From the NCBI RefSeq assembly GCF_018446385.1, contig NC_056003.1, forward strand, positions 20,705,198 to 20,769,197: a DNA stretch of 64,000 nucleotides, in the 5' to 3' direction. A program made the translations under genes and the position numbers. The notes under the pieces were generated by a model. The model was not told the origin of the DNA and ran no database searches. It saw nothing but the letters and a program-made list of their open reading frames with translations. The DNA is from Zingiber officinale. Lineage: Eukaryota; Streptophyta; Magnoliopsida; Zingiberales; Zingiberaceae. Of the stretch, positions 6,429-62,397 are shown piece after piece (within the stretch, counting starts at the first letter, position 1; each line of letters opens with the position of its first letter).

Positions 6429-6507
6429 CAACAACTCATCCTCCTAAATCAGCCTTCTGTTTGGGCGTCAACGAGTACTCTGACTTGACTAAGTTTCTTG
6501 AGCCCTC

Positions 6508-6757
6508 CAAAAAAATTAAAAAATGATAAACTCAGTTAGCTTTAATGAGTATCCTTGGGATGATCAGCCTAGCTCTATTATCGGTCACCAGAATAAATCA
6601 GAAAGCGTGTGATGCGGTCAGCCCAGAAACCCGACATCCTTTGGTTGTGTTTCCATTTGGAGGAAAATTTTTTACAAATACGTCATAGCTAGGGATTGAA
6701 CCGCGAGTGTCTGGGTGATAATCTAGATGTCCTATCACGAACCATAGCCCCGGGGAA
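6508..6757 (-). mobile_element. tRNA-derived SINE (family A)
   Basis: Read on the minus strand the element begins CCCCGGGGCTATGGTTCGTG, carries a box-B-like GCGGTTCAATCCC, and ends in a T/A-rich tail (TTTATCATTTTTTAA). A second copy is at 13047-13292. It is flanked by the 13-bp direct repeat TTCTTGAGCCCTC at 6495-6507 and 6758-6770, as expected for LINE-assisted integration. Confidence 0.8.
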
Positions 6758-6770
6758 TTCTTGAGCCCTC

Positions 6771-6979
6771 TTATGTGGGAAAAGACGATACGCTTGCTCC
6801 AGTATCCCTGTCAATCTTGTCTAGATCAATACAGAAGAGGTAAATCAAGAATGACTATTAGTTATTAATATAAATGCATGGTTAAAATATAAAAGAGGAC
6901 ATGCTCTCAGACGTGTCAAGTTTTAACTCTAATCTTATATGATAATTAAGGTCCATGTCTTAACCACTGTACGGAGAGA
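6771..6979 (-). mobile_element. tRNA-like SINE (family B) at the same target site
   Basis: On the minus strand this starts CTCCGTACAGTGGTTAAGAC, with a box-A-like GTGGTTAAGACATGG and a decayed box-B-like AGAGTTAAAACTTG. A third copy of the 13-mer TTCTTGAGCCCTC follows at 6980-6992, so this element and the family-A SINE lie in series between three copies of one target sequence. A related copy is at about 35585. Confidence 0.6.
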
Positions 6980-6992
6980 TTCTTGAGCCCTC

Positions 6993-12900: not shown

Positions 12901-13046
12901 AATTCAAACCAGATGCCACGAATGATATGCAAGATGACCCATCGCGACATATAACAGAATGAGCTGCAGGAAGAGATTCAGGATATCGAATATGATCCAG
13001 TTTATGGACTCAGAGGACACATTAGATGACTCGATCGACTATTCTA

Positions 13047-13292
13047 AAACATGATAATCCCAGTTAGCCTCATTGATTATCTCTGGAGTGACCGGTCCGA
13101 CCCCACAGAAGTTTTCCACCGGCAATCAGGGTAAATTGGGAAGCGCACGCGGTAGCCAACCCAGACGCCCAGCATCCTTTGATTGCGCTCCCAATTTGGA
13201 GGAAAATTTCTGCAAATACGCCGTAGCTAGGGATCGAACCGCGGGTGCCTGGGTGACAACCTGGATGTCCTACCGTGGCACCATGCCCCGGG
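13047..13292 (-). mobile_element. tRNA-derived SINE (family A), second copy
   Basis: Read on the minus strand it starts CCCCGGGGCATGGTGCCACG, has box-B GCGGTTCGATCCC, and ends GGGATTATCATGTTTT. It matches the copy at 6508-6757 over its whole length, including CAAAGGATG and the terminal GCTAACT. Its tail end adjoins the left copy of an 18-bp direct repeat (13029-13046), and its head end adjoins the tandem array that follows. Confidence 0.8.
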
Positions 13293-13297
13293 GATAA

Positions 13298-15441
13298 AAC
13301 TAAGGTAGGGTAAATTTTTTAACGTGACTGGGCCCACCGCTCCGCGGCCCCATACCCCAGAAACCCCCGAAGGGATTTTTTGGGGAGCCTCAGTACCACG
13401 TATCCAACGGATAAAAAGTTGATAAGAGGACTCAAACGCGGCACCTCAGTCAACAGTGCCCAAAATAGGGACTTAAATTGATAAGAGCATGCACAAGTGG
13501 GGGCTCAAACCTGGCACGACAGTCAATGGGTAACAACATCATAACCAGAGCACCCTAGTTCGGTTGTTTAAAACTAAGATAGGGTAAACTTTTTAACGTG
13601 ACTGGGCCCATCGCTCCACAGCCCCATACCTTAGAAACCCCCGAAGGGATTTTTTGGGGAGCCTCGGTACCACGTATCCGACGGATAAAGAGTTGATAAG
13701 AGGGCTCGAACACGGAACCTCAGTCAACAGTGCCCAAAATAGGGACTTAAATTGATAAGAGCATGCGCAGATGGGGGCTCGAACTTGGCACCTCGGTTAA
13801 TGGGTAACAACGTCATAACCAGAGCACCCCTAGTTCGGTTGTTAAAAACTCAGGTAGGGTAAACTTTTTAACGTGACTGAGCCCACCGCTCCGCGACCCC
13901 ATACCCTAGAAACCCCCGAAGGGATTGTTTGGGGAGCCTCAGTACCATGTATCCGACGGATAAAGAGCTGATAAGAGGGCTCGAACGCGGCACCTCAGTC
14001 AACAGTGACCAAAATAGGGACTTAAATTGATAAGAGTATGCGCAGATGGGGGCTCGAACCTGGCACCTCAGTCCATGGGTAACAATGTCATAACCAGAGC
14101 ACCCTTACTTCGGTTGTTAAAATAAGGTAGGGTAAACTTTTTAACGTGACTGGGCCCACCGCTCCGCAGCCCCATATCCCAGAAACCCCCAAAGGGATTT
14201 TTTTGGGAGCCTCAATACCACGTATTCGACGGATAAAGAGTTGATAAGAGGGCTTGAATGCGGCACCTCAATCAACAATACCCAAAATAGGGACTTAAAT
14301 TGATAAGAGCATGCGCAGATGGGGGCTCGAACCTGGCACCTCAGTCAATGGATAACAACGTCAAAACTAAACTAAGGTAGGGTAAACTTTTTAACGTGAC
14401 TGGGCCCATCGCTCCGCGGCCCCATACCCCAGAAACCCCCGAAGGGATTTTTTGGGGAGCCTCAGTACCACGTATCCGACAGATAAATAGTTGATAAGAG
14501 GGCTCGAACGTGGCACCTCAGTCAACAGTGCCCAAAATAGGGACTTAAATTGATAAGAGCATGCACAGGTGGGGGCTCGAACCTGACACCTCAGTCAATG
14601 TGTAACAACATCATAACCAGAGCACCCCTAGTTCGGTTGTTTAAAAACTAAGGTAGGGTAAACTTTTTAACGTGACTGGGCCCATCGCTCCGCAGCCCCA
14701 TACCTTAGAAACCCCCGAAGGGATTTTTTTGGGGAGCCTCGGTACCACGTATCCGACGGATAAAGAGTTGATAAGAGGGCTCGAACGCGGAACCTCAGTC
14801 AACAGTGCCCAAAATAGGGACTTAAATTGATAAGAGCATGCGCAGATGGGGGCTCGAACCTGGCACCTCAGTCAATAGATAACAACGTCATAACTAGAGC
14901 ACCCTAGTTCGATTGTTAAAACTAAGGTAGGGTAAACTTTTTAAGGTGACTGGGCCCACCGCTCCGCGACCCCATACCCTAGAAACCCCCGAAGGGATTT
15001 TTTGGGGAGCATCAGTACCACATATCCGATGGATAAAGAGTTGATAAGAGGGCTCGAACGCGGCACCTCAGTCAACAGTGCCCAAAATATGGACTTAAAT
15101 TGATAAGAGCATGCACAGGTGGGGGCTCGAACCTGGCACCTCAGTTAATGAGTAACAACGTCATAACCAGAGCACCCCTAGTTCGGTTGTTTAAAAACTA
15201 AGGTAGGGTAAACTTTTTAACATGACTGGGCCCACCGCTCCGCAGCCCCATACCCCAGAAACCCCCAAAGGAATTTTTTTGGGAGCCTCAGTACCACGTA
15301 TCCGACGGATAAAGAGTTGATAAGAGGGCTCAAACGCGGCACCTCAGTCAACAGTGCCCAAAATAGAGACTTAAATTGATAAGAGCATGCGCAAGTGGGG
15401 GCTTGAACCTGGCACCTTAGTCAATGGATAACAACGTCATA
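13298..15441 (-). repeat. Tandem array of eight tRNA-headed SINE-like units
   Basis: Eight head-to-tail copies, with the marker AAGGTAGGGTAAA at about 13302, 13576, 13851, 14124, 14384, 14650, 14924 and 15200 (spacing 260-276 bp). Read on the minus strand each unit starts GGGGTGCTCTGGTTATGACG, then has box-B GGTTCGAGCCCC, and about 65 bp later a second box-B-like GCGTTCGAGCCC after a repeated GACTGAGGTGCC. The body ends TAAAAAGTTTACCCTACC. Thus the unit looks like a dimeric tRNA-derived SINE. Unit 5 is shorter at its right end, and the last unit lacks its first ~12 bases. Copies differ by scattered substitutions. Confidence 0.85.
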
Positions 15442-16318
15442 ACTCGATTGACTATTCTAGAAGCTTGAGCAGGAAGAGTTTCCCATCCTCGACAATTACA
15501 TGATTTGGGCTTTGATCCATTCGCTGCTAGGGAATCCAAAGATGGTAGCACATCATATATGGGGGCGCTTTGAAAAGAGTATCTCATATGCAGAATTATG
15601 TGTGAAAATGGTACACCATGAGTTCCTAGAAGAGAATCCTATAGAGTCTAAGGAGGATCTTAAAGATTCTGAAGAGGATCTTGGAGAGTTTGAGGAGAAT
15701 CTCAAAGAGTCTAAGGAGGATCCAGAGGAGGATTGGACCAAGCTGAGATTACCAATTTGCCTAAGATTGCTTGAGCTGAACTTTGAAAGATAGGACTTTT
15801 GACAATTACTATTGTGTTGGTATCTTTCTTAGTGGGGGTAGTAATGTCCTATCAAATATAACCACTAGCGTTAGTCCTAGTGGGAGTAAGGTTAACTTAT
15901 TTTGTAAAGTAGAGTTTAGTTTTATTACTGTCACTATATATGGACAATATTAAACTCATATTAATAAAATCAGGCAATAGAAACTGTTGTTATGTACAAA
16001 TAGTGATATTTTAATGAAAAGTTATGTTATACGTTAACGAACTTGAAAAATAATATTATGTGTTGACTGTCTTAACAGAATGATTAGTTCATTTAATGAC
16101 ATGTTCATTGTATGATTATTCCATTTAATGATTAGTTCATTTGATTGGATGTATGTGATGGAATTAATCAATGTTGATTAGATTGGATCATATAAATGAT
16201 GAGCGTAAATATATTTATCACTTGATTTTGTAAACCAACTCAATTACATTGAGTCAATTGCTAATTACATACATATAAATTACACTGAATAAATAAATAA
16301 TATATTTATTTATAGATT

Positions 16319-54326: not shown

Positions 54327-62397
<8,071 letters not shown>

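Follow-up and report, generated by a model that had tools for sequence, protein, structure and literature searches.

Introduction

Heterodimeric short interspersed nuclear elements (SINEs) of plants have been described in earlier work. For Magnaporthe, the accessible passages on the MINE and WEIRD elements report 33 bipartite chimeras and one tripartite chimera, invoke template switching by a long interspersed nuclear element (LINE), and state that no solo WEIRD was found there (PMC2104539). Template switching is likewise proposed, in the portion of the source available, for an insect chimera of 5S and tRNA SINEs (PMC3272025), and the corresponding portion of a study of rodent SINEs leaves open whether B2 dimers arose when one SINE inserted into another or were copied from templates that were already dimeric (PMC8466645).

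Here we analyse a 2.4-kb block within a 64,000-nucleotide stretch of the ginger (Zingiber officinale) genome (assembly GCF_018446385.1, contig NC_056003.1, positions 20,705,198 to 20,769,197), which as a whole we refer to as the window. In this block eight copies of a unit of about 273 bp precede a SINE of a family designated SINE-A. The block is a real, well-bounded multipartite retroposon and one of a sizeable family, and it was probably built during target-primed reverse transcription in which the enzyme switched template several times, followed by duplication of a four-unit segment. The assembly searched comprises 3.09 Gb in 211 contigs. For a haplotype-resolved ginger assembly, the available part of the description gives 2n = 22, haplotype sizes of 1.53 Gb and 1.51 Gb and a heterozygosity of 3.78% (PMC8342499).

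Results

Read on the minus strand from 15459 to 13029, the block consists of an 18-bp repeat, the eight units, one SINE-A and a second 18-bp repeat. A sequence-only reading of the window had placed the two repeats at 13029–13046 (ACTCGATCGACTATTCTA) and 15442–15459 (ACTCGATTGACTATTCTA), and had described a SINE-A with eight units of about 273 bp, all on the minus strand. The positions of the repeats are right; the two copies are identical at 17 of 18 bases, differing by a single base, and no match as good occurred among about 200,000 random window pairs. The pattern ACTCGATYGACTATTCTA, which covers both repeats, has only two exact matches in the 3.09-Gb assembly when mismatches are disallowed, and both are here. 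The arrangement of the modules is upheld by BLAST, in which the minus strand matches the unit eight times and SINE-A once over its full length, and by Tandem Repeats Finder, which reports a 273-bp unit in 7.9 copies at 13295–15443.

SINE-A (13047–13294) is full-length at 248 bp (positions 1–248), with a T-rich tail that adjoins the left repeat and a B box at 13230–13240. It is adjoined by unit 8 (13296–13568), with the terminus CCTTAGTTTT, and beyond this lie unit 7 (13570–13844), unit 6 (13845–14119), unit 5 (about 14120–14368), unit 4 (14369–14641), unit 3 (14642–14918), unit 2 (14919–15191) and unit 1 (15192–15441), at lengths of 249–277 bp. The 5'-truncated head that had been noticed next to the right repeat is that of unit 1, which begins at unit position 21–27, a start that is inexact because the first bases overlap the duplication; the truncation is not confined to this end, however, as unit 5 is also headless and begins at about unit position 23.

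The homologous contig C17 provides an empty allele. A counterpart of the right flank is found there at 89% identity, and C17 passes from the left flank through a single target copy into the right flank with no match to any module, the two flanks being 88.9% and 86.7% identical to those of the window over 1051 and 746 columns. Because this site holds one target copy, the block is one bounded insertion, with the 18-bp duplication as its limits and no counterpart on the other haplotype; the outer direct repeats and the empty site together support the proposal, already made from the sequence, that the whole block integrated at one target. The target lies in a host repeat with 1555 first-look candidates, and the block is absent from all eight paralogous copies of this repeat that were fetched. 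A reading frame downstream in the host repeat gave a single Pfam match, below the cut-off and not meaningful. A duplication of about 10–20 bp (here 18 bp, 17/18 identical) together with a clean empty site (C17) is as expected of a LINE-mobilised retroposon, and so is 5' truncation in some copies, which is seen in unit 1 and, at varied points, in others.

To place the block in its family we used a search with the unit, which gave 79 matches from 40 scored among 403 candidate places. The sample consists of all 39 scored places outside the window locus together with the window, making 40 unit loci, and one SINE-A trimer was also fetched. Not all of these loci are independent: L036 and L039 are alleles on C7 and C8 (94.8% identity over 3384 columns), L060 and L071 may be alleles, and L074 and L075 on C9 and C10 are allelic by their flanks. 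A SINE partner follows the units at 34 of the 40 loci, namely A at 6, B at 26, C at 1 (L034, from which alone this partner was defined) and D at 1 (L064, where it was spotted by eye), with none recognised at 6. Chains have 1, 2, 3 or 8–9 units. Outer duplications of 16–20 bp, scoring 14–20, were detected in 16 of 41 rows, the cross-locus control reaching a maximum of 12 (n = 1640 pairings), and 15 of the 16 bracket units plus partner. The remaining one, at L071 (C10:136505440–136506600), is a perfect 20/20 repeat around three units, of which the last is 3'-truncated, and 24 more bases with no known SINE partner. The duplication at L063 is itself repetitive, and L044 has a 20/20 repeat farther out, although it is among the loci below the threshold of the duplication test. 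We do not favour a plain satellite, given the different SINE that closes most chains and the outer duplications.

Among the six loci with no recognised partner, only L069 shows a repeat, of 11 bp, directly after the unit. The upstream part of L069 resembles that of L064 and the two share the same GAGCTCTCAGT repeat, L064 carrying a unit followed by D and L069 a lone unit; possibly a partner was lost, or there were two insertions in copies of one repeat.

The partners also occur by themselves. No unit was present in the roughly 80 bases upstream of any of 20 solo SINE-A loci, picked by likeness to the SINE-A of the window, or of 20 solo SINE-B loci, picked by likeness to the B of L037. Their own duplications score at least 13 at 14 of the SINE-A and 17 of the SINE-B loci, and 17 of the 20 solo B copies start with GTCCCC. 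The partner is thus an ordinary SINE to which the unit has been added in front.

The junctions between modules are abrupt. Units end in TTAGTTTT or with one extra T, and the module that follows begins at its own first base or close to it. Of neighbours lying within 60 bases, 37 are unit-to-unit and 34 unit-to-A/B/C; nearly all of the latter pass from TTAGTTTT into the first bases of the partner, with 0–3 intervening bases in 33 of 34. The reverse order is rare, with a single direct A-to-unit junction, truncated, at L050, and two B-to-unit neighbours with 16–21 intervening bases that resemble a target copy. A few partners are entered internally: L125 has a full unit followed by B from position 36 within a 19/19 duplication, L124 an exact unit end followed by B from about 173, and L122 an exact unit end followed by A from about 89 in a gapped alignment. 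L128 is a unit with D, aligned only in part, within a 19/19 duplication. These features are those of a template-switch chimera, in which parts are joined directly in one orientation inside one pair of duplications, and the 5' part has an exact 3' end followed by varied exit points (here B 36 and 173, A 89).

A census with a unit-tail pattern gave 138 matches, the reversed control pattern giving 375. Among the 100 listed, classed by hand, the tail is followed by a unit in 11, by B in 8, by an A-like sequence in 15, by D in 5, by a C-like sequence in 1 and by other or chance sequence in 60; given the reversed control most of the last class may be chance, and some of the listed places are loci already sampled. 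Seven census loci were fetched, L122, L124, L125 and L128 among them; two of the seven have perfect 19-bp repeats and L127 has a repeat of 19/20.

The same junctions bear on the possibility that units and SINEs were inserted one by one at the same spot. Such serial insertion does occur in this genome, in the window at 6495–6992 and at L047 and L048. At 6495–6992, on the minus strand, three copies of GAGGGCTCAAGAA alternate with two SINE-like copies; one of these resembles B by eye, without a library match, and the other is a SINE-A at 6519–6756 with 72% identity to the library copy. This is repeated insertion at one target, another way to build tandem SINEs. L047 shows the same pattern, and L048 (C14:109171000–109176500), where a unit and B are followed by more full or truncated B copies with target variants of about 16 bp (ATGTATCTATAAAGTC) between them, is a hot spot of serial insertion. 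The known cases keep a target copy between elements, but by inspection (no formal test) none was seen in the 34 unit-to-A/B/C junctions. The missing inner duplications contradict serial insertion for the window block, and we consider it a very improbable origin.

SINE-A copies also lie close together elsewhere: L072 (C5:104315500–104316600) has three copies head to tail and no units, L084 has two copies 3 bp apart and L085 two copies with a 17-bp gap.

The unit itself carries promoter-like motifs. A perfect B box, GGTTCGAGCCC, is found in five of the eight window units, and the one unit copy scanned has an A-box-like site with one mismatch together with a perfect B box. ARAGORN found no tRNA; Rfam gave nothing at gathering level in the window, and no tRNA, and between 12800 and 15800, with E up to 1, only two matches, both far below gathering scores. 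Identification of the unit as a tRNA or other known RNA is therefore unsupported by either program, and the earlier description of the units as tRNA-headed keeps its A- and B-box motifs only. These motifs, and the TTTT end, suggest that the unit RNA was a product of RNA polymerase III (Pol III).

Within the array the units are not a plain tandem repeat of eight as had been described, because units 1–4 match units 5–8 in order. Over 18 informative columns the units pair 1 with 5, 2 with 6, 3 with 7 and 4 with 8, the best of 105 possible pairings, and these lag-4 pairs have a mean divergence of 6.1% versus 8.4% for other pairs, a difference that held in all 2000 bootstraps. Units 1 and 5 have nearly identical truncated heads. 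In-register exchange would not yield this, and the shared head points to duplication of a whole four-unit piece, which probably followed formation of the chain and gave the eight units. The duplication may have taken place after integration, which we prefer, or during cDNA synthesis. Of the later expansion by unequal exchange that had been offered as an alternative, the doubled tetramer with its repeated truncated head is what stands; only the one four-unit duplication is indicated. In L051 the lag-4 pairing ranks 7 of 105, with no clear doubling.

The course of events that we infer, including the jumps between RNAs, synthesis of the unit RNA by Pol III, the involvement of a LINE and the timing of the tetramer duplication, is as follows. 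A LINE reverse transcriptase would start on SINE-A RNA at the nicked target and copy it to its 5' end, then move over to a unit RNA at its U-rich 3' end and copy that, and make further jumps onto more unit RNAs, coming to a halt within the head of unit 1. Insertion of the product would be a single event, creating the 18-bp duplication, and the four-unit segment would then probably be duplicated to give eight units. Template switching is argued for by the varied partners, by A partners that do not form one clade, by internal entry into the partner, by the mixed units of L053, by near-intact duplications around diverged units and by the precedents of WEIRD and U6. A single clade for the six A partners is rejected (approximately unbiased (AU) test, p 2.4e-7). 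On the A tree there are 6 changes, of which starred branches force at least 3, some of these perhaps being losses; the solo A set is skewed in favour of the SINE-A of the window, the bootstrap had not settled and partial A copies under 180 bp were dropped. The unit tree keeps 73 units, pieces under 200 bp having been dropped, and places the two units of L053, which lie beside a 16/16 duplication, in different branches (support 80–87, not starred).

Several observations weigh against this scheme. Most unit-to-B junctions are identical (TTTT|GTCCCC), and a single origin for the fusion between unit and B could not be rejected (p 0.17), so that some of the family may possibly have spread as ready-made fusions. 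This would be expected if there were fused source genes, unit-SINE or unit-unit-SINE, read through the inner TTTT as one long RNA and retroposed whole in the manner of dimeric Alu, and such a master copy would fit the common unit-unit-B chains (10 of 41) and, equally well, the exact outer duplications. The A partners, though, exclude a single fused master for themselves by the one-clade test, the range of partners extends over A, B, C and D as well as B or A copies entered internally, and the two units of L053 lie in different branches. The composite label is also distributed on the B tree as if at random, with 16 changes against a shuffled mean of about 16 (23 composite versus 24 other B copies; composite copies under 160 bp were dropped, leaving 23 of 26). 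We therefore regard master copies as an unlikely explanation, and the one long RNA envisaged in the sequence-only reading as less likely than serial switching, given the varying partners, the failure of the A partners to form one clade and the three internal entries with exact unit ends.

A second set of such observations concerns likeness among units of one locus. On the unit tree the window units group together (4 changes against a shuffled mean of 7.6, none of 500 as low), perhaps partly on account of the tetramer pairs, and those of L051 do so too (5 changes against 7.5, 4 of 500 as low). One clade is not rejected for the window units (p 0.77) or the L051 units (p 0.71), and in both cases the likelihood under the one-clade constraint exceeded that of the free quick search. 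Units within loci of two or three units are somewhat more alike than random pairs (ratio 0.775 versus 0.865, none of 5000 draws as low), which fits co-expressed sources and also some local copying. One could accordingly imagine that a single unit and SINE-A were inserted and that unequal exchange or slippage then enlarged the array in place, as in a young satellite, and besides the clustering of the window units this would accommodate the tetramer doubling and the fact that all eight L051 units have their nearest relative within L051. However, the window units have no strong locus-specific letters, only one locus-specific derived column being found, in four of the eight, and they are barely closer to one another than to outside units (0.88 versus 0.91), although early expansion from a near-consensus unit would look alike. 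In multi-unit loci other than L051 and the window, the nearest relative comes from the same locus for only 2 of 36 units. Clean duplications flank multi-unit chains at six other loci and at L044, and the truncated unit 5 is unexpected from in-register exchange. Growth in place thus seems a quite improbable origin of the chain as a whole. Two further label counts on the unit tree were uncontrolled and are used for neither reading: first versus later position gives 11 changes (34 units), and partner A versus B gives 6 changes (6 A, 25 B).

The remaining difficulties for template switching concern the duplications and the unit RNA. The duplication test is not passed by 24 of the 40 unit loci, where ends are decayed or unrecognised or the fetched flanks short and which were not scored positive. 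Flanking duplications at other copies of the array had been named as what single-event integration hangs on; they are not generally lacking, since 15 other unit loci and the window beat all controls, although these 24 do not. L051, the sole other octamer-like locus, has no convincing duplication; its 3' flank is a repeat, and no allele of it on C19 was found, there being no C19 place among the 40 scored. No duplication is present at four of the seven loci fetched from the tail census. In favour of chains formed before insertion, the duplications of eight multi-unit loci carry 2 mismatches in 145 bases versus 12.7 expected from the unit divergence of 5–14% (p 0.0003, rising to 0.035 on the assumption that a locus with more than one mismatch would have escaped detection), a comparison made without correction for faster mutation at methylated sites. 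The window duplication, with one mismatch in 18, is too short for dating. Finally, each unit has an inner TTTT, which is awkward for a Pol III transcript.

Elsewhere in the window, at 56154–56990 on the minus strand, there is an exon-like reading frame with a strong AAA ATPase match, which we take to be FtsH-like.

Discussion

The chain is most likely the outcome of LINE template switching plus one segmental doubling, and as such extends a known kind of element and founds no new one. We found no report of the same arrangement in plants in a literature search at the level of titles and abstract beginnings, in which subscription journals are poorly covered, so that prior publication is possible. 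The unit family offers much for settling the origin of SINE multimers, as it combines one acceptor unit, several partners, switch points, clean duplications and two diverged haplotypes, and it provides a concrete route for the birth of composite SINE families in plants. Such chains may be overlooked by annotation; in the accessible part of its description, AnnoSINE drops plant candidates with a substantial tandem-repeat fraction (70% in length) (PMC8825457).

A more tentative idea is that the unit is an obligate hitch-hiker RNA, incapable of priming insertion by itself and propagated solely as the second or a later template of a LINE, with four to eight templates chained per insertion. We hold this as a possibility and not as our expectation. 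If true, processive template switching would be a way of life for a repeat family and not an accident.

As far as the accessible passages go, the block resembles WEIRD in that a full-length non-coding RNA sequence lies 5' of a LINE or SINE, in the same orientation, with the whole between repeats of 10–20 bp. It differs in that the Magnaporthe partner is 5'-truncated, whereas here the switch point in most loci, unlike that of MINE, is the 5' end of the partner, and in that there are two well-sampled partner SINE families (A and B), two found in few loci (C and D), and up to eight units. U6 is a U-tailed Pol III product. In mammalian U6 chimeras, according to the part of the source available, a short RNA is similarly preferred as the second template of a LINE reverse transcriptase and is placed 5' of the first (PMC4476161). 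There the acceptor is the RNA of a host gene and the first template L1 RNA or a cellular mRNA, whereas in the present family a SINE would serve as the first template and an anonymous repeated unit as the acceptor.

The Dip/B1 multimers of the Gobi jerboa are head-to-tail chains of one or two SINE families with up to eight units, as described in the available passages (PMC8466645), and the head-to-tail arrangement of a multimeric SINE is found here as well. The remark that long tandem SINE arrays are unusual is on this account half right, because two-unit chains are common here and eight-unit chains are published for the jerboa. Those passages describe no bounded empty-site case, whereas here there are duplications, an empty allele and switch points, and a polar order in which the unit comes first and the partner last. 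The SINE-derived satellites of squamates, in the part of that work available, are likewise tandem repeats born from SINE sequence, for which unequal exchange is considered (PMC10702118). As regards local amplification the window units are equivocal, in that they have no strong locus-specific letters yet cluster on the tree, and the lag-4 pattern amounts to one duplication step. In layout the two differ clearly: the squamate satellites repeat part of one SINE, inside its own ends and usually with its own end at one flank, whereas here whole units, each as a rule with head and tail, precede a different SINE that closes the chain.

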